A DNA stretch of 64,000 bases from Nitrosomonas sp. Is79A3 (GTDB lineage: Bacteria; Pseudomonadota; Gammaproteobacteria; Burkholderiales; Nitrosomonadaceae). The notes under the pieces were generated by a model. The model ran no database searches and was not told the DNA's origin. It saw nothing but the letters and a program-made list of their open reading frames with translations. The position numbers and the translations under genes are program-made. Every line of letters starts with the position of its first letter. Position 1 is the stretch's first letter. The stretch is from positions 2,480,001 through 2,544,000 of the forward strand of contig NC_015731.1 in NCBI RefSeq assembly GCF_000219585.1, written 5' to 3'. Below are positions 2,769 through 38,408 of the stretch, in pieces.

Positions 2769-2993
2769 TTACAGAGGGAATCCAGCAGGACGCTTTTGTC
2801 CTTTCGTTTTGCCATTCTGATACTTTGCAAGTCCGCGCATCACAAGGAATCCTCCTTCCGCAGTATCCGGTATTTCCCCATCAGCCATAATCTGATTAGA
2901 GCTACGTTTAAGCCAGATTGATATGAGACTACTGATAAAACTTAAAAGAAGTAGTAGAACGATGCCAAAAGCAATATTAATAAATGTAATCAT
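2769..2993 (-). CDS. Possible small membrane protein, 74 residues
   Basis: This frame has a strongly hydrophobic N-terminal segment (residues 3-28), then a basic turn (WLKRSS), then a polar tail rich in Gly, Lys and Pro (ADGEIPDTAEGG, KGQKRPAG). The tail is of normal composition, not low complexity, which argues mildly for a real protein. No convincing Shine-Dalgarno precedes the ATG and I know no family for it. It lies in the AT-rich accessory stretch between the MITE and the integrase. Confidence 0.3.
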   Translation of the reverse strand: MITFINIAFGIVLLLLLSFISSLISIWLKRSSNQIMADGEIPDTAEGGFLVMRGLAKYQNGKTKGQKRPAGFPL

Positions 2994-3818
2994 ATTTTAA
3001 TTAAGATTTAAATTTCGAAAAATTTTTACTAAATAACTCCATGCCTAATAACATGTAATCAAGTAAAACCTGTGAAACTCAAATCTGATTTTATCAGGGT
3101 ATTTTTTTTTGATATGGTTAATGAAAGACTAAAAATCCATAACATCTGAGTTGTAAATTTAGACGTATGAGTACAAGGTAAGCGTTGATTATGATAAAAA
3201 TTCTTTACTCTTTTTAAAGAATAAATTATATCAAATATAAAAAAATAATTCTTTAGTAGTACTCCATTCCTACTAGTCATAATCAGATATTTTTCAAATG
3301 ATTAAATGAAAAAATTCACTTCGCTCACATTTCCAATAATACTTAGAATTTTTATCACCAAATTATGGGATGCATGTTTTTATCACCATTAATATCATAT
3401 ATGTTGACATATTTAATATGAGTAACGGATTCTATTGGTTCTTCTTTAAGTAATAAAATAACACACTAAGAAGAACGAACATTAATAATAAACATAAGAT
3501 GCAATGTACCTACAATAATTCATTATGTCAATCATATATAAATGTATTTATATATGCCTTTTTATGCTTACCATTCGCATATCTGTTGTCAAAAAATAGT
3601 GTAGGCCTAAATCTATTTAAATGTCATGACAAGTTACTAATTTTATGGTTTGTAGAGAGGATTAGAATCCCCGATTTACTGACTACTGATTTGACCAACT
3701 TAGCTGTTAGTTTCTCAACATAAATTATTTTTCTGCTAATTATATTCCGCCTGCTGTCTACATAGTGTCTACATCAATTCATATAAATATAATAAATAAA
3801 TATAAACTATTGATTATT
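2994..3818. other. AT-rich accessory spacer without a convincing gene
   Basis: About 825 bases of very AT-rich DNA lie between the small membrane ORF and the tRNA fragment. The open frames here (for example 3059-3280 minus and 3499-3723 plus) have no ribosome sites and no recognisable motif, and I treat them as chance. The composition matches the neighbouring mobile DNA, not the core genes. Confidence 0.5.
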
Positions 3819-10884: not shown

Positions 10885-11982
10885 TTAGTGATCCATTGCA
10901 GCTTTTGCATCAAAGCTCTTTGGTGCTTTAACTTGGGTCATGAGATCATCGTCCCATTTTCCTTCAACATTCATATGCGCAGCAGCACCCAACAATACAG
11001 CTTCAATCAGGTTATGACTGAGGTATACATAGAGTCCTGGCTGTTTAAATTCATACGCTGCAGCAACTGCTGAACCGGCTGGAACAAACCAAGTTTCTTG
11101 GCTGGTCAGAGGAATGTCGCTGAATGAACCACCTACCCAGTACAGATCACCATGACCACCGATCAAGTGCGGATAGGATGGACGGTTAGCTTGTGAGTGA
11201 ATAAACAACACCTTCTCGCCTACTTTGGCTTTTAATGCGTTATCACCTGTCAGCGCGCCAACAGCGCCATTGAATACTACGTGTGTTGGAATGAGCCCTG
11301 TTGCCACTTTCAGCATATCGGCCATGCCTTCAGCTGGTGAACCGTAGGTTTTGAAATTGCCTTTGTCATCTTTTGGCAGATAGAAATCTTGTTCGCCGAT
11401 GTAATATGCACGGTCATAGGTGTATGGTTTGCCCTTTGCGTCTTTCAAGCCACCTTTTGGCAATACCATAACTGCGCCACTCATACCAGAAATGACGTGG
11501 AAAGGAATCATTGTTCCACCTGGTGCGCAATGATAAACGAATACGCCTGGTTTAATTGCTTTCCAGCGCAATACGACTTCTTCACCAGGTTGTACTAAGG
11601 TTAAACCAGCGCCACCCAATGCACCCGTTGATGCGTGGAAATCCACGTTATGTGCTAACGTGCTGGTTTTTGGGTTAACTAATGTCAATTCAACATAGTC
11701 GCCTTCATTCACTACGATAAGCGGACCAGGAATACTACCATTGAAAGTTAGACCCCATACTTTTGCACCAGGGGCAACTTCTACCAATTTTTCTTGAGTT
11801 TCCATGCGTACTTCAACAATCTTAGGCCCTTTGCTAACCTGTTCGTGTACAGGTACATTTGGCGGAGCCACCAATTCTTGTTTTACACGCGGTAATTTAG
11901 AAATGTCTTGTGCTACTGCTACTTGTGTAGCAGCCAAACAAAGCAATCCTAACCCTACTACTGCCTGAACAGCTTTAATCAT
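10885..11982 (-). CDS. nirK: Copper-containing nitrite reductase (NO-forming)
   Basis: NirK reduces nitrite to nitric oxide in the periplasm. I place the start at 11982 because GGAGGGAG precedes that ATG and residues 1-25 form a signal peptide (cleavage after VAVAQ or close by); the frame is open to 12090. Copper ligands are visible: His111 and His116 (HNVDFH), His151 and Cys152 (YHCAPGG), His162 and Met167 (FHVISGM), plus the late SYPHLIGGH and LSHNLIEA segments. Asp114 is the catalytic Asp. It is the AniA-like two-cupredoxin form, 365 residues. It stands alone here, with its own promoter and terminator, and not in an ncgABC-nirK operon like that of N. europaea. Confidence 0.93.
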
Positions 11983-24418: not shown

Positions 24419-25588
24419 TTATCTATACTTCGCCTGCCTAATTCTCTCCAATACCCGCAAAACCGTACAACGCGGTACGCCAATATTAAGCCGCATAAAC
24501 CCACTGCCTTCCGCACCAAACAAAATACCTGGACTCATACCGACTCCCGCTTCATGGATGAAAAAATGTTTGAGCTGCGCATCCGTCCTATTCCATGCCC
24601 GGCAATCCAGCCATAACAAATACGTGCCTTCGGCTTTGATGACTTTGATTTCCGGCAAGTGTTCGGCCAAAAAGGTTTCCACGCAATCGCGCGTATCGCG
24701 CAGATAAATCAATAATGCTTCCAGCCAGGCTTCGCCTTCGCGGTAGGCGGCTTCAAAGGCGGCGATGCTGAACGGGTTGGATGCGCTGATATGCATGGTG
24801 TTAAACACTTGTGTGACGGCGTTACGGATGGATTGATCGGGAATAATCAGCGCAGACAGATTCAATCCGGGAATGTTGAAGGTTTTGCTCGGCGCGACCG
24901 CGGTGATGATTTTTGCAGCATGTTCCGGGAACGCGGCCAGGGTATGGTGTTGATTGCCAGGATAGATCAAGTCGGCATGAATTTCATCGGAAAAAACAAT
25001 CACGTCATGTTTTGCGGCAATATCCAATAAACGTTCCAGTTCAGCGGGTTGCCAGACTCGGCCGACCGGGTTATGCGGCGAGCAAAGCAATAGCAGTTTC
25101 GCATCCTTTGCGCATTGTTCCAGATGGTCAAAATCGATGGTGTAGCGGCCATTTTCCAGATGCAGCGGATTTTGGATCAGTTTTCTGCCGGTTTGGGTGA
25201 CGGCAGAGAAAAACGGGAAATACACCGGGGGTTGAATGATGACGGATTCACCGGGTTGCGTAAACGCCATCACCGCCGCATTAATAGAGGGAACCACGCC
25301 GGGACACAGAATAATCCAATCGCGTTGTATGGCCCAGCCGTGGCGCCGCTGCATCCAGCCAATCAGGGCATCGTATAAACTGTCCGGGAAAAGCGTGTAG
25401 CCATAAATCGGGTGAGCGGCACGTTCTGTCAGTGCCCGGGTGACTGCGGGTGGCGCGGCAAAATCCATGTCGGCCACCCACACCGGAATGACGTCGCTTT
25501 TGCCAAACATGTTTTGCCGCCCGTCATACTTGACGCTGTGAGTGCCTTCGCGGTTGATTTCTTGGTCAAAATCAAAACCACTGCTCAA
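24419..25588 (-). CDS. ovoB: PLP-dependent C-S lyase (MalY/PatB family), probable OvoB
   Basis: The 389-residue protein is a fold-type I PLP enzyme of the cystathionine beta-lyase MalY/PatB group: VIPVWVADMDFAAPPAV near the start, LLLCSPHNPVGRVW, VFSDEIHADLIY, and the PLP lysine in APSKTFNIPGLN. Its ATG overlaps the ovoA stop by 4 bases (ATGA at 25588-25585), so the two are translationally coupled. In ovothiol synthesis OvoA makes a 5-histidylcysteine sulfoxide that a PLP lyase cleaves to 5-thiohistidine; the coupling makes that role the natural one. On sequence alone it could be a general cysteine-conjugate lyase. Confidence 0.85.
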   Translation of the reverse strand: MSSGFDFDQEINREGTHSVKYDGRQNMFGKSDVIPVWVADMDFAAPPAVTRALTERAAHPIYGYTLFPDSLYDALIGWMQRRHGWAIQRDWIILCPGVVPSINAAVMAFTQPGESVIIQPPVYFPFFSAVTQTGRKLIQNPLHLENGRYTIDFDHLEQCAKDAKLLLLCSPHNPVGRVWQPAELERLLDIAAKHDVIVFSDEIHADLIYPGNQHHTLAAFPEHAAKIITAVAPSKTFNIPGLNLSALIIPDQSIRNAVTQVFNTMHISASNPFSIAAFEAAYREGEAWLEALLIYLRDTRDCVETFLAEHLPEIKVIKAEGTYLLWLDCRAWNRTDAQLKHFFIHEAGVGMSPGILFGAEGSGFMRLNIGVPRCTVLRVLERIRQAKYR

Positions 25589-27699
25589 GCAATCTTCTCC
25601 CAGATCGTAACTTCTGACAGCGTATGCTGGAATTTACGCTTGGTTTCGCGAATGACAAAAGGCACGGCTTGCGGGCCTTGAATCAAGCGGAAATGGCTAC
25701 CCAGAATTTCTTTCAGGCCATCCAACGTGGTGAAATTTTCTCCATCGCGCTTGAATCCGCCGACCCAGGCTTCTTTTTTTGTGTGCTCGGCCAACCAGGT
25801 GTAAGGCGATGTGATCATCAGCAAACCGCCGCTATTGATGCGCGTGTGAATGCTGTTGAGCAATTTGGCCGGATCGTACAGACGATCAATCAAGTTAGCG
25901 GCGAGTATCAGGTCGTAACCGGTAAAAATAGGCTTCAGGTTGCACGCATCGCCCTGGAAAAACTCGACTTTATGTTTGATTGCGTCCAGTCCCAGGCTGG
26001 TCAGTGTGCGTTCCTTGTAGGATACCAGTTCGCCCTCGTCGGTCAGCGTGTAGCGCAGTATGCCTTGTTGTACCAGTTGCACGCCTTGACCGATGAAGCG
26101 CGCGGAGAAATCTATGCCGGTAACGTGATCGAAAGCATGCGCCAATTCAAACGTAGAGCGACCGGATGCGCAACCCAAATCCAGCGCCGTGCGTTTAGGC
26201 CGGTTACCCATCGCAGCGATGGCAATTTCGGCCAAGGCTTTGGGGAAATTCGGCACATCAAAATAGATATCGCCATAATGAAATTCAGCGTATTCCGACA
26301 GCAGTTTGTCGGTTTCATAGTTGGAACTTTGCAAAATCGCCGGCGTGTCGGTGACGACATAACGAAATCCCGCGTGCTGAAAGAAATGCCGGCGAAATGC
26401 ATAACGTGCGCTACGCAGTGTTTCATTGCCGCAAGCAACCCAGGAACCGCCCTTAATGAGATTGTGCTGATTGTCAAAAGTGGGCGTGGTGAAGTCGTCA
26501 TATAGCGTATGCACATCAAAACCGGCAAAGGGATAAGTAGGCGTTTCAGTCCACTGCCAAACGTTGCCGACGATATCGAAAAATTCGCCCTGCGGAAATT
26601 CGGTCACCGGGCAGCTGGATGCGTAATAATCCAAATGCAGATTCCCCACAGCCGGTGCGTTGAACGGTACCTCGGATAACTGGGCGACATCGTACAACCG
26701 GTACCATTCGTCTTCCGTCGGCAACCGCACAGGTTGCCCGGTGGTTGCAGCTTTCCAGTTACAAAACGCTTTCGCCTCATGGTAATTGACTTCGACCGGC
26801 CAATCCCACGGCATCGGCATTTCTTCGGTCATCACCCGCAAATACCAGGCACCGTCTTTTTTTACCCAGAAAGTGGGATGTTCAGCCAGCGTAAACTTTT
26901 TCCATGAACGGCCTTCTTCCTGCCAGAAACTCTCCGTGTGGTAACCATTGGCTGTTACAAAAGGTAAAAATTCCTGATTACTGACCAGATATTTGCTCGC
27001 CTGGAACGCGGAGATATCCGCGTTGTGCAAGCCATACTCGTTATCCCAGCCATAATGCGAGTGATCGGATTTGCTTTTTCCGATAGTAACAGTGCCGACT
27101 GCAACGGGAATCAGTTCATTGGTTGGCGCGGTTCCAGATTTTCGGCAAGGTTGCCAATCCGGATGCGGTTGCACAAATTCAAGTTTATGTTGGCGTATCA
27201 ATACGGAAGAGGTTTCCAGATGGATACGTTCATGTTCGATGCCCATTAGAATCGGCCACCAAGGACTGTCCCAGGTGATCGGTAAAGTCAGCGGCATCGT
27301 AGTAATCAATTTATCGACCACGGCTCGCATGGTTTTGCGATAGGCACGCACTTCTTCCACGGCAGGCCAATCATAATGCGCACTATCCAGATCGTCCCAG
27401 CTCATTTCATCGACACCGACAGCAAAAATCGATTCCAGTCTGGGATTGATGCGTTCGGTAATGAGCCCGGCGAGAATCAGCTTGTTGACAAAAAATGTGG
27501 CCGTGTGTCCCAGATAAAAAATCAAAGGATGACGGAGTGAAATGGGTTTTTTATAGTAGGCTTCATCATTGCGCAGTGTTTCAAAAAGCTGCTCATAACA
27601 ATCCAGAGTCGAATGAAAATAAGTACGAATCTCTTCACGTTTTAAGTTGACATTATCGCCGTCAAGTAGTGGTGTTCTCTGAAATAATGGTTGTGACAT
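25585..27699 (-). CDS. ovoA: 5-histidylcysteine sulfoxide synthase / mercaptohistidine methyltransferase
   Basis: OvoA joins cysteine sulfur to histidine C5 with O2 and non-haem iron, and its C-terminal domain N-methylates the thiohistidine, giving ovothiol. The start at 27699 (MSQPLFQRTP) matches where the family usually begins; the frame is open to 27789. In 704 residues come a DinB-like domain with RHPLIFYLGH and the iron motif EHERIHLE (HxxxHxE), a formylglycine-enzyme-like domain (about 205-440, with RLPTEDEWYRLYD and GNVWQWTETP), and a methyltransferase (about 490-704, ALDLGCASGRST). Length and order are those of OvoA; the EgtB of ergothioneine synthesis lacks this methyltransferase arrangement. 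Confidence 0.92.
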   Translation of the reverse strand: MSQPLFQRTPLLDGDNVNLKREEIRTYFHSTLDCYEQLFETLRNDEAYYKKPISLRHPLIFYLGHTATFFVNKLILAGLITERINPRLESIFAVGVDEMSWDDLDSAHYDWPAVEEVRAYRKTMRAVVDKLITTMPLTLPITWDSPWWPILMGIEHERIHLETSSVLIRQHKLEFVQPHPDWQPCRKSGTAPTNELIPVAVGTVTIGKSKSDHSHYGWDNEYGLHNADISAFQASKYLVSNQEFLPFVTANGYHTESFWQEEGRSWKKFTLAEHPTFWVKKDGAWYLRVMTEEMPMPWDWPVEVNYHEAKAFCNWKAATTGQPVRLPTEDEWYRLYDVAQLSEVPFNAPAVGNLHLDYYASSCPVTEFPQGEFFDIVGNVWQWTETPTYPFAGFDVHTLYDDFTTPTFDNQHNLIKGGSWVACGNETLRSARYAFRRHFFQHAGFRYVVTDTPAILQSSNYETDKLLSEYAEFHYGDIYFDVPNFPKALAEIAIAAMGNRPKRTALDLGCASGRSTFELAHAFDHVTGIDFSARFIGQGVQLVQQGILRYTLTDEGELVSYKERTLTSLGLDAIKHKVEFFQGDACNLKPIFTGYDLILAANLIDRLYDPAKLLNSIHTRINSGGLLMITSPYTWLAEHTKKEAWVGGFKRDGENFTTLDGLKEILGSHFRLIQGPQAVPFVIRETKRKFQHTLSEVTIWEKIA

Positions 27700-27819
27700 A
27701 TCGTAATTTTTAACGGATTGTTCGGTTCTTTGGCCGGTATTATAGCGCTTCAAACTTTTTAGATCATACCCAATCGGGATAAAAGTCATTTATCCTTGAT
27801 AGATCATGCTTAAAATGAA

Positions 27820-28518
27820 ATGAAAATAATGAATGAAGCCACTTTAATTCTTGTCTGCAAAAAACCCGCTCCCGGTATCGGCAAACAAAGACTGGCAGCG
27901 AGTTTAGGCATTGAAATGACACAGAAAGTTGCCGATGCATTATTGGCTTGCGCGCTGGAAGATGCCTGTGATTGGCCAGGCCCGGTGGTGATTGCTCCCG
28001 CCAGTGTGGAGGATATTGAATGGGCGCGCGCTTTGTCAACATCGGTACCTTCCCCAGTGACAGTTGTCCCTCAGGTAGCAGGTAACCTGGGGCAACGCTT
28101 GAATGCGCTGGATCAAACATTGCGCGCACAGGGAATGGAACAACTGGTATTTATTGGCAGCGACTCCCCCGGGCTGGATATAGCAGATTATACCGCCACA
28201 CGCGCCGCATTGCAGCACGCAGATATAGTGTTGATCCCCGCGCTGGATGGTGGCGTTGTGCTGATGGCCAATCGTTATGCATGGCCGGATTTATCGGCTT
28301 TGCCGTGGAGTAGCGATCAACTGGGCGCCGCGCTCATTGATGCTTGCCGTACAGCAAGGCAATCTGTGAAAACCTTCGGACATGGCACCGATGTGGATGA
28401 AATGGAAGATCTTGTAAGATTAGTTTCTTTGCTGCAACGGGATTCACGACCGGCGCGTTGCGCATTGCTTGAACTGACAAAAAATATTCTTTTCACCTTA
28501 AAAATCGCCAATGCTTAA
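27820..28518 (+). CDS. DUF2064 / rSAM-associated transferase 1 (GT-A like)
   Basis: The 232-residue protein has a nucleotidyl/glycosyltransferase GT-A fold: CKKPAPGIGKQRLA at the start, the metal-binding stretch FIGSDSPGLD near residue 110, and LIPALDGGVVLMA. It matches the family named rSAM/selenodomain-associated transferase 1 (DUF2064). The substrate is unknown. It is the first gene of a five-gene operon, divergent from ovoA, and its stop overlaps the next start by 8 bases. An alternative ATG lies at 27829. Confidence 0.82.
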   Translation: MKIMNEATLILVCKKPAPGIGKQRLAASLGIEMTQKVADALLACALEDACDWPGPVVIAPASVEDIEWARALSTSVPSPVTVVPQVAGNLGQRLNALDQTLRAQGMEQLVFIGSDSPGLDIADYTATRAALQHADIVLIPALDGGVVLMANRYAWPDLSALPWSSDQLGAALIDACRTARQSVKTFGHGTDVDEMEDLVRLVSLLQRDSRPARCALLELTKNILFTLKIANA

Positions 28519-29200
28519 TTTTAGCGTCATTATCCCTTGTTTCCATGACGAGGAAAAACTGGCGTATTTACTCGCGCAATTGCAAAAATTACCGTACAGG
28601 CCTTGGGAAATCATCGTCGTGGATGCTGCCAACAGTGAATCGTGCGCAGAAATCTGCACGCAATTTCAGGCGCAGCGGATAGTCAGTGAACCGTGCCGCG
28701 GCCAGCAATTGCTGACCGGCGCGGCGCAGGCAAGAGGTGACATTTTGTGGTTTTTACATGCGGATGCGCAACTATCGACCGATCCATTGACAGCAATGAC
28801 AAAGGCGATTGCCCAAGGTGCAACCGGCGGTTATTTCCGTTTTCGCTTTGCCGCACCGCGCGCCTGGCCGGCGTTTATCCTGGAACCGATGGTTGCTTTG
28901 CGTTGCCGAATAGGGGTTCCGTATGGCGATCAGGGAATTTTCGTGGCGCGCCCGGTTTATCATCAAGTGGGCGGGCACGCGCCCTGGCCGCTGTTTGAAG
29001 AAGTGCCTTTGGTACGCGCTATGCGCCGGGTTGGCAAGTTTCTGCCGTTAACCGCGCCCATTTTTATCGATCCACGGCGCTGGCAGCGCGATGGCTGGTG
29101 GCGGCGAACCTGGCACAACCGCAAGCTGGCTTTGAATTTTATGTGCGGCGTCACACCGCAGGAATTGGCTTCACGTTATCATTCTAAAATTGGCTCTTGA
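28511..29200 (+). CDS. Glycosyltransferase 2, rSAM-associated transferase 2 type
   Basis: This 229-residue GT2 enzyme opens with FSVIIPCFHDEEKLAYLLAQ, then EIIVVDAANSE and the DxD-type motif LWFLHADAQL near residue 85. It ends with a short basic segment (WWRRTWHNRKLALNFM). It belongs to the small GT2 proteins called transferase 2, rSAM/selenodomain-associated, which occur with the DUF2064 family as here. It probably moves a sugar onto a small molecule or lipid; the acceptor is unknown. It overlaps its upstream neighbour by 8 bases. Confidence 0.82.
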   Translation: MLNFSVIIPCFHDEEKLAYLLAQLQKLPYRPWEIIVVDAANSESCAEICTQFQAQRIVSEPCRGQQLLTGAAQARGDILWFLHADAQLSTDPLTAMTKAIAQGATGGYFRFRFAAPRAWPAFILEPMVALRCRIGVPYGDQGIFVARPVYHQVGGHAPWPLFEEVPLVRAMRRVGKFLPLTAPIFIDPRRWQRDGWWRRTWHNRKLALNFMCGVTPQELASRYHSKIGS

Positions 29201-29239
29201 ATGACATAATGACGCTAATCCTCAAAAATAAGGAATACC

Positions 29240-30286
29240 ATGCAAGAGATTGTTCAAAAATATTATGGCGAAACACTGACGGGCAGTCAGGATTTGCAAA
29301 CCAACGCATGTTGCACGGATGCAGGTTTGCCACATTTTGTAAAACCATTGCTGGCGCGAGTGCACGCGGATGTGCAGACACGTTATTACGGCTGTGGCCT
29401 GGTTTTACCCGAATTACTGCAAGGTTTGACCATTCTTGATCTGGGTTGCGGCGCAGGGCGTGACGTTTTTGTGCTGTCTCAACTGGTGGGGGAAACAGGA
29501 CAGGTCATCGGCGTGGATATGACCGAAGAGCAACTGGCGATTGCGCGTCAACATGAAAAATATCACCAAAAGGCTTTTGGCTACAAACGCAGCAACGTCC
29601 GTTTCCTGCACGGTTATATTGAACGATTGCACGAGCTTGAATTAGCCGATGCCAGCGTGGATGTGATTGTTTCGAACTGCGTGATTAATCTGGCTCCGGA
29701 CAAAGCAGCGGTGCTGCGCGAAGCTTTCCGCGTTTTGAAGCCCGGCGGGGAACTGTATTTTTCCGATGTATACAGCGACCGCCGCATTCCGCTGGCATTG
29801 ACCCAGGATCCGGTACTGTATGGCGAATGCTTGAGCGGTGCACTATATTGGAATGATTTTCTGCAATTGTCACGCAAACACGGCTTCACTGATCCGCGCT
29901 TGGTTGACGACCGGCCCATTGACATCAGCAACCCGGAACTGGCGGAAAAAACCGGCAATATCGGTTTTTATTCGGCGACCTATCGCTTGTTCAAACTGCA
30001 TGATCTGGAACTGGCTTGTGAGGATCATGGGCAATCCGTTGTGTATCGCGGCACCATTCCGCATCATCGCCATGCGTTCCGGCTGGATAAGCACCATTTT
30101 ATCGAGACCGGCAGACAGTTTCCGGTGTGTGGCAATACTTGGCGCATGCTGCATGACACACGCTTTGTTAAACATTTTGATTTTTACGGTAACTTTGATC
30201 AGCACTTTGGCATTTTTCCGGGTTGTGGTATGGGGATTCCATTTGACGATGCGATCATGGGTGATCAGACAAGCGGGTGTTGTTGA
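29240..30286 (+). CDS. arsM: ArsM-type arsenite S-adenosylmethionine methyltransferase
   Basis: ArsM methylates trivalent arsenic. The 348-residue protein has the SAM motif LDLGCGAGRDVFVLS (residues 66-80) and the ArsM arsenic-binding cysteines: Cys24/25 (TNACCTDAG), Cys147 (VSNCVINL) and Cys197 (GECLSGAL). The 50-residue gap between the last two equals that between Cys174 and Cys224 of the algal CmArsM. The C-terminal domain (GNTWRMLHDTRFVKHF, HFGIF) also fits. AAGGAATACC serves as ribosome site. It sits 39 bases after the GT2 gene and is followed at once by a radical SAM gene. Confidence 0.88.
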   Translation: MQEIVQKYYGETLTGSQDLQTNACCTDAGLPHFVKPLLARVHADVQTRYYGCGLVLPELLQGLTILDLGCGAGRDVFVLSQLVGETGQVIGVDMTEEQLAIARQHEKYHQKAFGYKRSNVRFLHGYIERLHELELADASVDVIVSNCVINLAPDKAAVLREAFRVLKPGGELYFSDVYSDRRIPLALTQDPVLYGECLSGALYWNDFLQLSRKHGFTDPRLVDDRPIDISNPELAEKTGNIGFYSATYRLFKLHDLELACEDHGQSVVYRGTIPHHRHAFRLDKHHFIETGRQFPVCGNTWRMLHDTRFVKHFDFYGNFDQHFGIFPGCGMGIPFDDAIMGDQTSGCC

Positions 30287-30288
30287 AC

Positions 30289-31242
30289 ATGAATGCTAAT
30301 GTCTTACCACCACCCGCATCGACTGAACATCGTTCGCGTTCCAAGCTGTGGTATGTCACGCCCGATGACAAGCCGCGCGGCTTTATTCGTTCACATGCCT
30401 TAGAAGAACTCTGGTTTCATACCGGTACCGCTTGTAATCTGGCTTGTCCTTTTTGTCTGGAAGGCTCCAAACCCGGCGACGACCGCTTGCAATTGATGCG
30501 TTTTGACGACGCCAGACCATTTATCGACGAAGCGTTGACACTGGGTGTCAAACAATTCTCTTTTACCGGCGGAGAGCCTTTTATTAACAAAGACTTGATC
30601 CACATTCTGGATTACGCGCTCCAGCACCGCCCCTGCATGGTGCTGACCAATGCCACGGAACCATTGATTAAACGCTTGTCACAATTAAAGCCGCTGCGTG
30701 AGCGGTCGAACGCTGTGCATTTTCGCGTTAGCCTGGATCATTTCTCAGCGGAACAGCATGACAAGAACCGGGGCGAAGGCATGTTTTCAATGGCGTTGGA
30801 TGGACTCTGCGCATTGCATGACATGGGATTCAGTGTATCGGTAGCCAACCAAACCATCCCAGGTTTACCTGCCCATAAAGTCGCCAAATGTTTTGCGGAA
30901 GTTTTTCGCGGCGCAGGATTGCCGGAAAATCTGCCGCGCATCGAGTTTCCTGAATTCCATCCGCCCGGTATCACAGTCACCGCACCGCAAATTACGCACA
31001 GTTGCATGGTCGATTATCAGACCGAATCCACACGCCGTGAATTTATGTGCGCATTCAGCCGCATGGTTGTCAAGAGTGAAGGCAAATGCAGAGTCTATGC
31101 GTGTACGTTGGTGGATGATGACGCCGATTATGTGCTCGGCACAACACTGGCCGCAAGTCTAAAAATTCCGGTCAGTATGAAACATCATCGTTGTTATAGC
31201 TGTTTCCAGTATGGCGCTTCGTGCAGTGAAATGAAGCGATAG
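30289..31242 (+). CDS. Radical SAM enzyme of the ArsM operon
   Basis: The cluster motif CNLACPFC gives Cys49, Cys53 and Cys56 (CxxxCxxC), with the SAM-contact GGEPF near residue 90. The C-terminal third holds seven or so further cysteines (C.VDY, C.FSR, CRVYAC, CYSCFQYGASC), so a second iron-sulfur cluster of SPASM or twitch type is likely. The 317-residue protein is not the known ArsS in full, which has a different Cys-rich tail. Its place directly after arsM and beside the two rSAM-associated transferases suggests it modifies a methylated arsenical or a linked natural product. A GTG at 30277 is an alternative start, overlapping arsM. Confidence 0.8.
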   Translation: MNANVLPPPASTEHRSRSKLWYVTPDDKPRGFIRSHALEELWFHTGTACNLACPFCLEGSKPGDDRLQLMRFDDARPFIDEALTLGVKQFSFTGGEPFINKDLIHILDYALQHRPCMVLTNATEPLIKRLSQLKPLRERSNAVHFRVSLDHFSAEQHDKNRGEGMFSMALDGLCALHDMGFSVSVANQTIPGLPAHKVAKCFAEVFRGAGLPENLPRIEFPEFHPPGITVTAPQITHSCMVDYQTESTRREFMCAFSRMVVKSEGKCRVYACTLVDDDADYVLGTTLAASLKIPVSMKHHRCYSCFQYGASCSEMKR

Positions 31243-31244
31243 CC

Positions 31245-33395
31245 ATGAAACGCCGCTGGGGGCTACTGATACTGCTCGGCTTGTTAGCCGGGTTGTTTTT
31301 CAGTTTTGACTTAGGGCGCTTTTTCACGCTGGAAGCGCTCAAAGACCAGCATGAAGCATTACAACAAGCCTACCGGGCAGAGCCGTTTCTTGTGACCGGT
31401 ATTTTCGCAGCAATCTATATCGTGATGGCTGCGTTATCATTCCCCGGCGCAACCCTAATGACGCTGGCCGGTGGCGCGATATTCGGATTCTGGACCGGCG
31501 TGCCGGTGGTATTGGTATCGGCTACGATTGGTGCCACACTGGCGTTCTGGACTGCGCGCTATGTATTGCGCGATGCCGTGCAGCACCGCTTTGGCGATCG
31601 CCTGGATACCATCAACAAAGGCCTTGAGCGGGATGGCGTTTTTTGTTTGTTTTCCTTGCGCCTGGTGCCTGTTTTTCCATTCTTTCTCATCAATTTGCTG
31701 ATGGGATTGACCGCCATTCGCAGCACTACTTTCTTCTGGGTCAGCCTGGTTGGCATGTTCGCCGGAACCGCCGCCTATGTGAATGCGGGCACACAGTTGG
31801 CAGCGATCACACACTTATCAGATGTCATGTCTCCGGCATTGATTATTTCATTGATTGTGTTGGCGCTCTTTCCGTGGCTGGCCCGCTGGGGCATCGGGCT
31901 GGCAAGAACCCGCCGCTTATATGCGCGCTGGACCAAACCGCGCCAATTTGACCGCAATCTGATCGTGATCGGCGCCGGTTCTGCCGGATTGGTGAGCGCG
32001 TATATTGCAGCGGCAACGCGCGCCAAAGTAACCTTGATTGAAAGCCACAAGATGGGAGGCGATTGCCTCAATTACGGGTGTGTACCGTCCAAAGCATTGA
32101 TCCGTACCGCCACTTTTTTGCAACAGGCAAAAAACGCCACATCACTGGGTATTGCACAGACCACTGTTCGGTATGATTTTTCGGATGTCATGGCACGTGT
32201 CCAGCGCGTGATCAAAACAATCGAACCGCACGATTCGGTAGAACGTTATACCCAATTGGGTGTAGAAGTGTTGCGAGGAAAAGCGAAAATGACTTCGCCC
32301 TGGTCGGTGGAAGTCAATGGACAAACACTCTCCACGCGCGCCATCGTCATCGCGACCGGTGCGCGCCCGGCGATTCCAGAAATCTCGGGACTGGAATCGG
32401 TGCGCTATTACACTTCCGATACCCTTTGGTCGCTGACTGAACGGCCGGAGCGCTTGATTGTGCTGGGCGGCGGACCGATCGGCTGCGAATTGGCACAAGC
32501 ATTTTCCCGGCTAGACTGCCAAGTGACACAGGTCGTGCGAAGTGATTGTTTGCCGCGCGAAGATGCGGATGCTGTAGCGCTGATTAAAGCAGCATTGCAA
32601 GCAGATGGCGTAACCTTGCTGACGCAAACCGAAGCGCTACGCTGTGAGAAAGAAGGCGATGCGCAATATTTGACGGTGCGCGGCACTGACGGCAAAGAAT
32701 TCAAACTGCCGTTTGATGCGCTGTTATGCGCCACCGGCCGGATACCTCGCACAGAAGGTTTTGGATTAGAGGAATTGGGTATCCCGGTTTCACCACTACG
32801 CACCATTGAAACCAATGCCTGGTTACAAACCATTTATCCCAACATCTATGCCTGCGGCGATGTTGCCGGACCCTATCAATTCACCCACACGGCCGCGCAC
32901 CAGGCGTGGCATGCCTCGGTCAATGCCCTTTTTGGCACTCTCAAACGTTTCAAAGTGGACTATTCAGTGATTTCGTGGACGACATTCACCGACCCGGAAG
33001 TTGCGCGGGTAGGATTGTCGGAAAATGAAGCCAAAGCACGCAATATCGCCTTCGAAGTAACGCGTTTTAATCTGAGTGATCTGGATCGCGCGATTACCGA
33101 CGAAGCGGCGCAGGGCTTTGTCAAAGTGCTGACGGTGCCGGGTAAGGATCGTATTCTGGGCGTCAGCATAGCCGGCGCCCACGCCAGCGATTTACTCGCT
33201 GAATTTGTACTCGCCATGAAGCATGGCTTGGGCCTAAACAAAATTCTAGGCACCATGCATACCTATCCCACCTGGTCAGAAGCTAATAAATATGCAGCGG
33301 GAGAATGGAAACGCGCGCATGCGCCACAACTACTGCTTAAGTGGGTGGAGAAATATCATGCTAAGAAGCGAGGGAGAGAGAGTGCAGCTGATTAA
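31245..33395 (+). CDS. TVP38/TMEM64 membrane domain fused to mercuric reductase-like flavoprotein
   Basis: Residues 1-225 or so are a TVP38/TMEM64 (DedA-like) integral membrane domain with GATLMTLAGGAIFG and FSLRLVPVFPFFLINLLMG. Residues 235-716 are a class I pyridine nucleotide-disulfide oxidoreductase: FAD motif VIGAGSAGLVSA, redox pair Cys274/Cys279 (GGDCLNYGCVPSK), NAD motif VLGGGPIGCELAQAF, YACGDVAGP, and the dimerization domain. It lacks the extra C-terminal Cys pair and N-terminal metal-binding domain of MerA. Such fusions exist elsewhere, with unknown substrate. It starts 2 bases after the radical SAM stop, so it belongs to the arsM operon and may reduce a thiol, arsenical or quinone at the membrane. 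Confidence 0.88.
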   Translation: MKRRWGLLILLGLLAGLFFSFDLGRFFTLEALKDQHEALQQAYRAEPFLVTGIFAAIYIVMAALSFPGATLMTLAGGAIFGFWTGVPVVLVSATIGATLAFWTARYVLRDAVQHRFGDRLDTINKGLERDGVFCLFSLRLVPVFPFFLINLLMGLTAIRSTTFFWVSLVGMFAGTAAYVNAGTQLAAITHLSDVMSPALIISLIVLALFPWLARWGIGLARTRRLYARWTKPRQFDRNLIVIGAGSAGLVSAYIAAATRAKVTLIESHKMGGDCLNYGCVPSKALIRTATFLQQAKNATSLGIAQTTVRYDFSDVMARVQRVIKTIEPHDSVERYTQLGVEVLRGKAKMTSPWSVEVNGQTLSTRAIVIATGARPAIPEISGLESVRYYTSDTLWSLTERPERLIVLGGGPIGCELAQAFSRLDCQVTQVVRSDCLPREDADAVALIKAALQADGVTLLTQTEALRCEKEGDAQYLTVRGTDGKEFKLPFDALLCATGRIPRTEGFGLEELGIPVSPLRTIETNAWLQTIYPNIYACGDVAGPYQFTHTAAHQAWHASVNALFGTLKRFKVDYSVISWTTFTDPEVARVGLSENEAKARNIAFEVTRFNLSDLDRAITDEAAQGFVKVLTVPGKDRILGVSIAGAHASDLLAEFVLAMKHGLGLNKILGTMHTYPTWSEANKYAAGEWKRAHAPQLLLKWVEKYHAKKRGRESAAD

Positions 33396-33639: not shown

Positions 33640-36600
33640 CTAGCGTGAAAGTACGCGCAAGACTTTGGCGCGCAGTGTGACGATAAAGTGATTGACAAAG
33701 CCGCGTTGTTGCGCCAGATCGAGCAGCGCCTGCGCTTGGGCATGGTAAAACACCGGATTGCGGCTGCCATTATTAATTTTTCCCATGAGCAAAATACTGG
33801 CCGCCTCTAGCTGGCCCAATTGGCTCAGCACGTCGGCACGGATGGCATCGGTGTGGTCATCGCAACAACGGCGCTGAGCTGCCAGATCAAGTATCGTCAA
33901 CGCGCCTTGCGTATTGCCTGCCCTCAGCCGGGATTTGGCTTCGTCGTTGAAATAGATCGGGTTTAGGCTGCCGCCATTGATTTTTTCCATGCGCACAGCG
34001 CCTGCAGCGTCTGCCTGCCCGCTGCTTTGCAACGCGCTGCTGCGGATCGCAGCCGTCACGTCATCGAAGCAATTGCGCTTTTGCGCTAAATCGAGTATCT
34101 GCAATGCGCCTCGCGCGTCGTTCGCGTTGAGGCGAGCTTTGGCTTCGTCGTTGTAAAACGCAGCATGCAAACTGCCGTCATTTATTCTCTCCATGCGCAA
34201 CTGGCTCGCCATTGCGTGTTCACCCAAACGCATCAGACAATTGAGCTGCACGGAAATCACAAAATCATCAATTGCTTGCGGGTAGTCTTGCGCCAATACC
34301 GCCAGCCGCAGCAGAAACGCTTTGGCTCCATCTTCGCCTTGGGCCAGTAGGCATTTGCCTAAATTGGCCCAACTTTGTGGAAAACTGGCCGACCATTGAC
34401 AGGCTTGCTCAAAACTAAGCAAGGCATTGGCGCTTGCCCAGCCTTCTTCCTTGGCCCAGCATTCACCCAAAAAGCGCCAAGCCTTGGGTTCATCCGGGGC
34501 TAACTTGACCCAATATTGCAGTACTTTGCGTTGTTCGATGATTGGTGCGCGGTTCTTGAATAAATGTTCATACAATTTGGTGATGCGCGCTACGGCCCAA
34601 CCCTCATTGCCGCCAAGCAAATCAATCGCAATCTCATGTACCCGATCCCCTTGCGCGCCAGCCGTCAAGTGGAAAAACGCTTGCAAGGCCCGCTCGATGT
34701 TCACAGAAGATGTACGCTTGCTTCCGCCTAGCTGCTTAAGCCAGCAGCTTGCCACCACCACATGCAAATGCTGCGCCAGCGTGATTTGTTGTGGCGACAC
34801 CTTGAGAGAAAATTCGGCCTGGCCAGCATCATCCGTCGATTGGTAGCCCAAACCGAAGCGCAGCCAATCGGCGATGAAGCCGTGCAGATAAAACAGCGTA
34901 CCATTGCTGCCAGAGGCCAGCAAACAACGGCGGTGAATTCCATCCCAGGCCCCAGGCAAGCGCAATTCGTTTTCCAGCCCATCGGCATGGTCATGCGGAA
35001 TCGCGACCCGGTACAATGCCAAAGCTTGTAGCATTTGCCGCTCTGCCGGGTTAAGCACTTTGTTGAACAAATCGCCCAGTAAGGCGGTTTCGATATTGTC
35101 TTTAATCTCTTGCTGTTCTAAAACTGTGATCGGAGTGCTTCTTGTCGCACGGCCAATTTCGATCAAAAACGACAAGGCCAGCGGATGCGCCTGCTTGCCG
35201 CCGCCACCGCCCAGCCAGCCATAAACGCGCTTCAACTGGTCGCCGCGCAAAGTCCAATCCGCAGCCATGCCTTCTGGTGCGGCATCGGCCAGCGCTTGGC
35301 CCAGCGCTTCTTTATCCAGACCCAGGATTTCACATTCCACCCCGTCCGCGCCCAACAGACCCCTAGGCGGGCGCTCGCGCAGCTCCAGCACTATCGGCCA
35401 TGTTTTGCCATATGCGCGCTGCAAACCGAGCAGCAATTTGCGCACTTCCTGCGAACGAAAACCCTTGGCGTCGAGCAGCACATGCGCCCTGTCCAACCAC
35501 AGCCACGCGGTGCGTGGTGCGGGGTAGCGCTGCTTGAATTGATTGGCGATGCTGTCGATATCACCAGTAGGTGCCAGTGGGAATTCGGCAGTTTCGCCTA
35601 GTGCCAAGGCAAATTGGCGGAACAGGCTGTCGGCATTCATGCCTGGCTCGGCCTGAATCCTCACTGCCTCGCCCAGCAGCGGCGCTTGCTTGGCCAAGCC
35701 TTCGATAAACCAGGTTTTGCCATTGCCGCGCATGCCATACACCAGTAGCACCGGGTATTGCCGCAATTTGACGGCGGTGGTTTTGAGCAATTGCTCGCGG
35801 CCATACAGCTTGCCTTGCGTGGGCAAGCTGGCGGCGGGGGCGCTCACGGTGGTGCTTTTGGCGGTTGGCTCAGGTGTGGTCATGGGCGCAATTTCGGCTT
35901 CGTACGCAAGCTCGGGTGCGGCCACGGGCGGCGGCACTGCCGCAAGGTTTTGCAGCAAAGCATTGGGCAGTGCAAACGGCCAAATAGCTTTCGGCGCATG
36001 GGTAGGCACAGGCGCTATCATCCAGCCAGTTTTGTCATAGCGATGCAAATGCACTTCACTCTTGCCCGTGGTCAAATCCAAGCGCACTAAATTCATCCCA
36101 AACTCTTGCGCTTGCGCCGCACCTATTGCGCCAGCAGCCACCGTGACGCAGGTGCTCGGTTCCACCCACGTATTATGCGCATGGCCGTGCAGGAAAAAAT
36201 GAAAATCGCTCGCCAGACGCTTGGTCAGGGTGGTGCGTTCGGTTTGGTTAAGATTGTCTATCGGGTGGTGCATCAAAGCGATGCGCAGGGTGGCATTGTT
36301 CAGCGCAGTCTTAGCGGCATTGAGTTGCCATTCTGCCGCTAGCCATAGCTTGCGGTCATCTTCATCAGCCGCGCACGACCAAGCGGAATTCAAGCCGGCG
36401 ATGCCAACTGGTACACCCGCCACGTCCAGCACAGTTGCGTAGCAGATGCGGTCATTCTCGTCATGTTGATGCGGCAAATACTCTTTGACGAATTTGCCGT
36501 AATCTGCCAAGCGTTTGATATTGTTTTGAAACTCCAATTGCCTATCATTGAAACGTTCATTGATTGCGTCCACGTGCTTGCTTGAATCTTCGGTTTTCTT

Positions 36601-36951
36601 ATACAGCGACTCCTGCGCATCACGATCGATGCAGCTACGGTCAATATCATGATTTCCAGGCACCACAAACAAGCGCTGTTTTGCCATCCGCACGCCATCT
36701 TTGCCGCAAACTTGCAACAAATTATCAAAGAATTCTTTTGCCTCTGCATATTGTTCAAGTAAGGGTGCATGGGGCAATTCGCCAAAGGCGATATCGCCAG
36801 TGCAGAAAATCAAATCTGGGCGTAAATGCGGTTCATCCTCGAAGCACTGTTTCAAATACGTCAGCAACGCGGCATGTGAATGCCCATCGCGCCATTTCAA
36901 CTTGGGGAAAAAATGGATGTCAGAAAGATGCAACCAAATCAATTGGCTCAT
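33640..36951 (-). CDS. Metallophosphoesterase-STAND-like ATPase-repeat protein, candidate anti-phage effector
   Basis: This 1103-residue protein has three parts. Residues 1-310 are a calcineurin-like phosphoesterase with all metal ligands: Asp11 and His13, Asp53 (TGDIAFG), GNHD 99-102, His228/229, and GHAH 256-259. A Pro/Ala-rich linker (about 314-380) leads to an ATPase of STAND/NACHT kind: P-loop GMRGNGKT (406-413) and Walker B LWLDRAH (484-490). The last 400 residues are helical repeats, TPR-like, ending with three units of about 68 residues marked by RMEKING.S. Sensor-ATPase-effector layouts of this kind occur in bacterial immunity (for example Avs), where the N-terminal domain attacks nucleic acid or nucleotides. 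The role is inferred. hicBA lies downstream in the same patch. Confidence 0.8.
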   Translation of the reverse strand: MSQLIWLHLSDIHFFPKLKWRDGHSHAALLTYLKQCFEDEPHLRPDLIFCTGDIAFGELPHAPLLEQYAEAKEFFDNLLQVCGKDGVRMAKQRLFVVPGNHDIDRSCIDRDAQESLYKKTEDSSKHVDAINERFNDRQLEFQNNIKRLADYGKFVKEYLPHQHDENDRICYATVLDVAGVPVGIAGLNSAWSCAADEDDRKLWLAAEWQLNAAKTALNNATLRIALMHHPIDNLNQTERTTLTKRLASDFHFFLHGHAHNTWVEPSTCVTVAAGAIGAAQAQEFGMNLVRLDLTTGKSEVHLHRYDKTGWMIAPVPTHAPKAIWPFALPNALLQNLAAVPPPVAAPELAYEAEIAPMTTPEPTAKSTTVSAPAASLPTQGKLYGREQLLKTTAVKLRQYPVLLVYGMRGNGKTWFIEGLAKQAPLLGEAVRIQAEPGMNADSLFRQFALALGETAEFPLAPTGDIDSIANQFKQRYPAPRTAWLWLDRAHVLLDAKGFRSQEVRKLLLGLQRAYGKTWPIVLELRERPPRGLLGADGVECEILGLDKEALGQALADAAPEGMAADWTLRGDQLKRVYGWLGGGGGKQAHPLALSFLIEIGRATRSTPITVLEQQEIKDNIETALLGDLFNKVLNPAERQMLQALALYRVAIPHDHADGLENELRLPGAWDGIHRRCLLASGSNGTLFYLHGFIADWLRFGLGYQSTDDAGQAEFSLKVSPQQITLAQHLHVVVASCWLKQLGGSKRTSSVNIERALQAFFHLTAGAQGDRVHEIAIDLLGGNEGWAVARITKLYEHLFKNRAPIIEQRKVLQYWVKLAPDEPKAWRFLGECWAKEEGWASANALLSFEQACQWSASFPQSWANLGKCLLAQGEDGAKAFLLRLAVLAQDYPQAIDDFVISVQLNCLMRLGEHAMASQLRMERINDGSLHAAFYNDEAKARLNANDARGALQILDLAQKRNCFDDVTAAIRSSALQSSGQADAAGAVRMEKINGGSLNPIYFNDEAKSRLRAGNTQGALTILDLAAQRRCCDDHTDAIRADVLSQLGQLEAASILLMGKINNGSRNPVFYHAQAQALLDLAQQRGFVNHFIVTLRAKVLRVLSR

Positions 36952-37823: not shown

Positions 37824-38408
37824 ATGATGAAGACCAGGAAAAGTTATTATCACCGGGGTGGCAGTGAGCCACTTCTGGGCGCAACCATTCCGGAACATCT
37901 TGCCTCGGTCGTCGAGCGGTTTCCGCAACATTGGGCAGTCGTATCGAAACCGCAAAACCGCCGTTTAAATTATCAGCAATTTGCTGCTGAAGTTGATCAG
38001 CTTGCATGCGCCATTTATGCCATGGGATATCGAAAAGGCAATCGCATCGGCGTGTGGGCGACCAACAACATGGAATGGATTCTGCTGCAAATGGCCACCG
38101 CACGCATCGGCATCGTATTAGTCAATATCAATCCCGCCCATCGCCCCCGCGAACTGGCCTATGCTTTGCAGCATTCGAAAGTGGAAGGCTTGTTTGTCAT
38201 ACCCAAGTTCCGCTCGAGTGACTATATCGGCATGCTGGTAACGTTGATGCCTGAACTTAAACAGATGCCGCATGAGAATCTTCGCTTAAAAGATTTTCCC
38301 GCGCTGCGCAGCAGCGTGGTGTATGACCCTGTGAATCCGTTAAATCCGTTACAAATTAAACGGAAGGTGGAGAATAAACATTCCTTTCCATGCAAAGGAA
38401 TGTACTGA
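37824..38408 (+). pseudogene. Truncated acyl-CoA synthetase (AMP-binding), N-terminal part only
   Basis: The first 145 residues or so match the N-terminal end of fatty acyl-CoA synthetases: TIPEHLASVVERFPQ, a LNYQQFAAEVDQLA segment, then IGVWATNNMEWILLQMATARIG and LVNINPAHRPRELAYAL. Family members run to 540 residues or more and need the later YTSGTTG and GYG motifs, which are absent; the frame ends after 194 residues. The part after about residue 160 no longer looks like the family. It is a decayed gene, probably cut when the neighbouring accessory DNA entered. Confidence 0.75.

Follow-up and report, generated by a model that had tools for sequence, protein, structure and literature searches.

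In many aquatic organisms, arsenosugars are a main form in which arsenic occurs, and we know of no enzymes assigned to the bacterial steps that follow ArsM and ArsS. In PMC12159101, ArsS chemistry is arsenic adenosylation by a radical S-adenosylmethionine (SAM) enzyme, and PMC8552651 cites SsArsM/SsArsS of Synechocystis for arsenosugar biosynthesis. PMC8552651 also describes ArsL, a radical SAM enzyme of 428 amino acids (aa) with three conserved cysteines, and the arsinothricin cluster arsQML, in which a radical SAM enzyme and ArsM share one operon. Here we analyzed a stretch of 64,000 nucleotides (the window) of Nitrosomonas sp. Is79A3 (NC_015731.1, positions 2,480,001–2,544,000 of the forward strand), which carries a five-gene operon for two transferase-type proteins (GT1 and GT2), ArsM, a radical SAM protein (rSAM), and a TVP38-reductase fusion (TVPred). 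The operon resembles arsQML in joining a radical SAM enzyme to ArsM, but none of its five genes encodes a permease and the transferases and the fusion are extra. As in the ArsM–ArsS system (TIGR04167), ArsM, TIGR04282, TIGR04283, and a TVP38-reductase fusion accompany a CX3CX2C enzyme with C-terminal cysteines, but the radical SAM protein of this operon is not ArsS. From these comparisons, we consider it fairly likely that the operon encodes a pathway of the arsenosugar type, with a distinct radical SAM enzyme taking over the role of ArsS.

All five genes are open reading frames (ORFs) on the plus strand between 27820 and 33395, in a host genome of 3.78 Mb on one contig. They are packed as tightly as a preliminary description of this DNA had claimed, with an 8-base overlap followed by gaps of 39, 2, and 2 bases. 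The automated ORF list starts rSAM at a GTG (30277); the ATG at 30289 agrees with the 2-base spacing. The gene families recovered were a TIGR04282-like protein, TIGR04283, an arsenite methyltransferase, a radical SAM protein (PF04055), and a VTT domain with Pyr_redox_2/Pyr_redox_dim. Of the two transferase families, TIGR04283 passed the cut-off, whereas TIGR04282 was covered over the whole model but stayed under it. TIGR04283, TIGR04282, and ArsM, the partners listed as a membership feature of ArsS, are all present in the window operon.

We surveyed 369 genomes of the class, including that of the window, for ArsS (E 1e-50) and TIGR04283 (E 1e-30). ArsS was found in 182 genomes (179 over the cut-off) and the new rSAM in seven, the window genome among them, and no genome had both. 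TIGR04283 was present in 180 of the 182 ArsS genomes, in 6 of the 7 genomes with the new rSAM, and in 17 of the 180 genomes with neither (Fisher 1.2e-5). ArsS was also sought in 32 named genomes carrying the new rSAM and was found in none, and among 61 Nitrosomonas genomes it passed the cut-off in one (G034). The data show which genes are present, how they are conserved, that the new rSAM and ArsS exclude each other, and that the two share their partners; the new rSAM fills the slot of ArsS.

The G034 genome has a complete ArsS cluster (L172) in the order ArsM (60%)–GT1–GT2–TVPred (60%)–ArsS, together with a damaged rSAM operon (L197) that keeps ArsM and rSAM, retains the last 87 residues of GT2, and lacks GT1 and the fusion. 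A broken IS605 OrfB-type frame, whose helix-turn-helix domain scored 68 bits, lies between OvoA and the truncated GT2 at 11142–11786 on the minus strand of L197. This damage is as expected if the rSAM operon is redundant with the ArsS cluster, although it is one case. In L211, from the same order as the window genome, the arrangement is TVPred (57%)–GT2–GT1–ArsS–ArsM, with an ArsM of the same long type (61%). Among 20 ArsS loci searched with tblastn, GT2 was present in 13, and at no site did the new rSAM outscore ArsS.

Relatives of rSAM were found in 411 stretches of genome contigs, of which the best 80 were retained as named loci, several of them cut by contig ends; this sample leans towards Nitrosomonas because the search patterns were derived from a Nitrosomonas alignment. 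Among these best 80 of 411, the nearest named relatives by the rSAM gene were from Nitrosomonas. The relatives extend to Nitrosomonas, Nitrosospira, Nitrosovibrio, Methylotenera, Motiliproteus, and Neptuniibacter, and to single contigs of metagenome-assembled genomes (MAGs) labelled Spirochaetes, Lentisphaeria, Verrucomicrobia, and Eisenbacteria. ArsM was present in 71, GT1 in 67, GT2 in 71, and the TVP38 fusion in 55 of the 80 loci. The preliminary description had proposed looking for the same gene order elsewhere: GT1–GT2–ArsM–rSAM lay on one strand in 60 of the 80 loci, and in 43 of the 80 the TVP38 fusion also followed downstream at a distance of no more than 1 kb. The conserved gene order far exceeds chance. 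When 37 Nitrosomonas genomes were searched for rSAM, ArsM, and TIGR04283, rSAM was found in 23, each of which also had ArsM and a TIGR04283 copy above the cut-off; the copy of G034 sits in the ArsS cluster, not in the rSAM cluster. The 14 genomes without rSAM included one with ArsM (G001, 62%) and none with TIGR04283 over the cut-off.

As separate observations, TIGR04283-like copies just under the cut-off occurred in nine Nitrosomonas genomes (G002, G004, G006, G010, G014, G015, G019, G025, and G036). Eight of the nine lie within frames of 663–696 aa (691 aa in G036), suggesting a fused glycosyltransferase. In the Lentisphaeria MAG locus L109, a flavin reductase-type frame (FAD_binding_6, NAD_binding_1) occupies 2785–3444 on the plus strand between ArsM and rSAM; its product might supply electrons to the radical SAM cluster.

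Table 1 Genes and motifs of the operon and its divergent neighbours in the window.
Feature	Position	Strand	Description
GT1	27820..28518	+	232 aa, TIGR04282-type (DUF2064, CofC-like)
GT2	28511..29200	+	229 aa, TIGR04283 family glycosyltransferase (Glycos_transf_2)
ArsM	29240..30286	+	348 aa, long form, arsenite S-adenosylmethionine methyltransferase
rSAM	30289..31242	+	317 aa, unnamed radical SAM/auxiliary-cluster-type protein, occupies the ArsS position
rSAM CX3CX2C cluster motif (C49, C53, C56)	30433..30456	+	invariant in 23- and 21-sequence alignments
rSAM C-terminal cysteines (C239, C254, C272, C302, C305, C312)	31003..31224	+	likely auxiliary Fe-S ligands
TVPred	31245..33395	+	716 aa, TVP38/TMEM64 (VTT) membrane domain + pyridine nucleotide-disulfide reductase
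Divergent pair OvoA + PatB-type C-S lyase	24419-27789	-	profile matches over cut-off

rSAM matched the radical SAM model PF04055 with 63.9 bits. Against the ArsS model TIGR04167 it scored 47.1 bits, over residues 37–188 only and below the curated cut-off of 300, compared with 471 bits for the control ArsS of L172. DUF3641 (PF12345) gave no match in rSAM at E 0.01, and the control ArsS matched it with 194.6 bits at residues 182–316. The preliminary description was thus right that the enzyme has extra cysteines and is not a full ArsS. CX3CX2C, another membership feature of ArsS, is present as the invariant C49, C53, and C56. The best NCBIfam score, with NF049973 (Rv1681 family radical SAM; 98.4 bits, residues 44–202), was far under the cut-off of 380, and the C-terminal half of rSAM was unmatched. 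Profile–profile alignment with ArsS covered residues 33–183 of the window protein (Prob 97.5), a match that other radical SAM families may give likewise. The C-terminal halves of the two proteins scored 20.3 in a profile comparison, with 3 of 200 column-shuffled controls scoring higher, and a similar cysteine tail is visible; this is suggestive at most of common descent. That rSAM is merely a diverged ArsS was rejected, given the absence of DUF3641 and an alignment confined to the radical SAM core. By these profile comparisons, rSAM belongs to an unnamed family distinct from ArsS. Among the matches listed from open-access PMC text, judged by titles and the openings of abstracts, none described this family or reported an arsenosugar operon in Nitrosomonas.

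Ten cysteines of rSAM (C49, C53, C56, C116, C239, C254, C272, C302, C305, and C312) were invariant in alignment A1 (23 rows) and also in A2 (21 rows), except that one row of A2 ends before C312. The six at the C-terminus are likely ligands of auxiliary Fe-S clusters. An AlphaFold model of rSAM (mean predicted local distance difference test score 84.8) aligned with 7vob (BlsE; Z 19.2, root mean square deviation 3.6, 247 aligned), 6efn (SkfB; 18.0, 3.3, 237), and 2fb2 (MoaA; 16.3, 3.4, 233), and an AlphaFold model of ArsS gave largely the same PDB neighbours. BlsE, SkfB, and MoaA are, we assume, enzymes with SPASM/twitch domains; their identity to rSAM is 17–20%, and the likeness lies in the fold alone and does not imply a shared function. 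The model thus predicts a radical SAM core followed by an auxiliary-cluster-type, SPASM/twitch-like C-terminal domain.

ArsM of the window scored 343.6 bits against 5evj and 301 against 4kw7 and 4fr0, over residues 4–331 and 4–327; all three are presumably algal arsenic methyltransferases. Its cysteines are C24/C25, C52, C147, and C197 (codons from 29309, 29312, 29393, 29678, and 29828), and in the alignment with 5evj, a solved arsenite methyltransferase, C24, C52, C147, and C197 fall on cysteines. The 50-residue spacing reported earlier and likened to that of CmArsM, whose pair we take to be C174/C224, holds between C147 and C197, and the 5evj alignment is ungapped between them.

GT1 covered positions 1–189 of the 189 of the TIGR04282 model with 110.5 bits (cut-off 134), and a marine homologue reached 127.5 bits. 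GT1 also matched PF09837 (58.8 bits) and, weakly, the CofC model (29.9 bits). K22, Q23, R24, D115, D143, D191, and D193 were invariant in 12 sequences; we take the K-Q-R motif to be NTP-binding-like, and GSD and DVD to be acidic motifs of a nucleotidyltransferase-like kind. Among solved structures, 3cgx, labelled a putative nucleotide-diphospho-sugar transferase, is the only strong relative. GT1 may therefore be a nucleotidyltransferase that activates a sugar-1-phosphate rather than a sugar transferase. GT2 passed the TIGR04283 cut-off of 182 with 201.1 bits and matched PF00535, and the NCBIfam names of TIGR04282 and TIGR04283 both refer to arsenosugar. TVPred matched VTT_dom (84.1 bits), Pyr_redox_2 (209 bits), Pyr_redox_dim (97.9 bits), and PRK06370.1-3 (497 bits, cut-off 620), and it retains the redox pair C274–C279 (codons 32064–32081). 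MerA, the mercuric reductase, carries a C-terminal cysteine pair; this identity was rejected for TVPred, which scored 358 bits against TIGR02053 (cut-off 454) and has its last cysteine at residue 537 of 716.

In the pathway that we propose, ArsM, judging from its family and cysteines, would methylate arsenite to dimethylarsenite. The genomic slot of rSAM suggests that this enzyme probably adenosylates dimethylated arsenic: it would cleave SAM through its CX3CX2C cluster and add the resulting 5'-deoxyadenosyl group to trivalent dimethylarsenic, giving 5'-deoxy-5'-dimethylarsinoyl-adenosine. Adenine would then be removed, in the marine relatives by a methylthioadenosine (MTA) phosphorylase (MTAP) of the operon, to leave an arsenic-bearing ribose-1-phosphate. 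Activation of this compound may fall to GT1, and its transfer to glycerol or a lipid headgroup may fall to GT2. The TVP38-reductase fusion might act at the membrane as a source of reducing equivalents, or it might move the product. A sugar-linked arsenical is our best guess because the transferase families are named for arsenosugar and the same parts surround ArsS elsewhere. The preliminary description had suggested a modified, perhaps glycosylated, arsenical; this is partly supported. Its direction stands, with rSAM as a substitute for ArsS, and since GT1 is CofC-like, the glycosylation may be less straightforward than proposed.

An MTAP gene adjoins or lies near rSAM on the same strand in six of the 80 named loci (L095, L100, L101, L103, L106, and L108; Motiliproteus/Neptuniibacter) and in L194. 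The NCBIfam MTAP cut-off was passed in L095, L100, L103, and L194, and the TDYD motif, which we take to serve adenine recognition, was seen in six of these seven copies. A general role for MTAP in the pathway was rejected: beyond these six loci and L194, none was detected in 20 ArsS loci or in L211–L213 by tblastn and an ORF scan, the latter missing genes in GC-rich loci. The window genome has an MTAP homologue outside the operon, which is not regarded as part of it because its pocket motif differs from the marine TDYD. In L100 and L108, Motiliproteus loci that carry ArsM, an ArsC-type arsenate reductase gene lies inside the operon (141 and 132 bits, cut-off 174 not reached).

Several observations weigh against an arsenosugar-type pathway. 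Without DUF3641 and with a weak C-terminal match, identical chemistry of rSAM and ArsS does not follow from homology. The exclusion of the two enzymes (hypergeometric P 0.008) ignores kinship and rests on seven genomes. TIGR04283 lies on a different contig from rSAM in G234 and was not found at 1e-30 in G233, and in the Nitrosomonas genome G009, GT1, GT2, and ArsM are on another contig than rSAM. The window ArsM scored only 101.9 bits against NF038099, the NCBIfam arsenosugar ArsM (cut-off 400), and also stayed under the cut-off of PRK11873 (189.7 bits, cut-off 263); these models may describe other ArsM subtypes, since the solved arsenic methyltransferases match it better. MTAP is absent from the window operon, and its operon copy was the sole over-cut-off MTAP in each of six marine genomes searched, so it may serve ordinary salvage there. 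Finally, searches with the window ArsM at 1e-30 found no ArsM in locus or genome for L095, L101, L103, and L106 (family best 72 bits vs 263), nor for the MAG loci L059 and L098 among ten genomes searched; L059 begins inside rSAM, its upstream part being cut off.

The operon could instead yield another organoarsenical, with rSAM joining a different group to arsenic, such as the 3-amino-3-carboxypropyl group of SAM in the manner of ArsL, or otherwise altering a methylated arsenical that the transferases then decorate. The distance of rSAM from ArsS in sequence, the missing DUF3641, and the weak C-terminal match allow for this, and ArsL, as described in PMC8552651, is a precedent for a second radical chemistry on arsenic. 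However, ArsL with its 428 aa and three conserved cysteines (same source) differs from rSAM with 317 aa and ten, the GT1, GT2, TVPred, and ArsM type are common to true ArsS operons, and in the genomes searched rSAM and ArsS were found together only in G034. Shared partners and near-exclusion with ArsS indicate the same product line, and we regard another organoarsenical as unlikely.

We judge it similarly improbable that rSAM and the transferases act on an arsenic-free substrate, with ArsM optional and the ArsM-less marine operons representing the core function. Operons without ArsM that keep the other genes had been named beforehand as evidence against the arsenical proposal, and four genomes largely fit that description: L095, L101, L103, and L106 keep GT1, rSAM, MTAP, and GT2, and three of the four also encode the TVP38 fusion, but on the opposite strand. 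On the other hand, ArsM is in the locus in 71 of the 80 cases, and in three of the remaining nine (L093, L102, and L110, among the five other ArsM-less loci) it lies elsewhere in the genome. In the rSAM tree, the four ArsM-less rows fall in a seven-row fork with ArsM-bearing L100, L108, and L194 (SH-aLRT, an approximate likelihood ratio test, 91; quick tree), and secondary loss of ArsM is the simplest reading because these rSAMs branch with ArsM-bearing sisters. Two of these sisters have the ArsC-type genes in the operon, and GT2 tracks ArsS across the class. If ArsM was lost, rSAM in those marine genomes must act on scavenged dimethylarsenic, which such cells could import after its synthesis by others, or on something else; an arsenic-free function of these four operons is possible.

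That the locus is an ordinary arsenic detoxification neighbourhood, in which ArsM volatilises arsenic beside unrelated cell-envelope chemistry, agrees with the general family names of the genes and with the ArsM of G001 that lacks rSAM and TIGR04283, but is very unlikely given that 23 of 37 Nitrosomonas genomes have rSAM, ArsM, and TIGR04283 together and that the order is kept in 60 of 80 loci.

OvoA (TIGR04344, 695 bits; TIGR04345, 345 bits) and the PatB-type C-S lyase (TIGR04350, 552 bits), all over the cut-off, lie next to the operon and likely belong to an ovothiol pathway, judging by their profile matches. A role of these genes in the operon pathway was considered, but they are regarded as neighbours because OvoA occurs in only 16 of the 80 related loci. 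On the other side, 33640–36951 on the minus strand encodes a protein of 1103 aa that combines a calcineurin-like phosphoesterase domain with an nSTAND6 NTPase domain and partly matches the DS8 anti-phage model (110 bits, cut-off 790). A 194-aa frame at 37824–38408 on the plus strand follows a fatty acid CoA ligase model from its start to position 170 of 558 (196 bits, cut-off 832); there it stops, and it appears truncated.

A broader proposal, which we put forward tentatively, is that nitrifiers, methylotrophs, and marine bacteria form the C–As bond of arsenosugars with a second radical SAM family, one that excludes ArsS. In some marine genomes, where the operon would have lost ArsM and includes an adenosine-type phosphorylase, the cells would then make arsenosugars out of dimethylarsenic taken from seawater, and phosphorolysis would release the arsenic-bearing ribose-1-phosphate to GT1 and GT2. 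If true, this would be a second radical route to arsenosugar C–As bonds, and Nitrosomonas, Nitrosospira, and Methylotenera would be candidate arsenosugar makers overlooked by ArsS-based surveys. The MTA phosphorylase of the marine operons suggests how adenine may leave, and the CofC-like GT1 suggests how the sugar may be activated.

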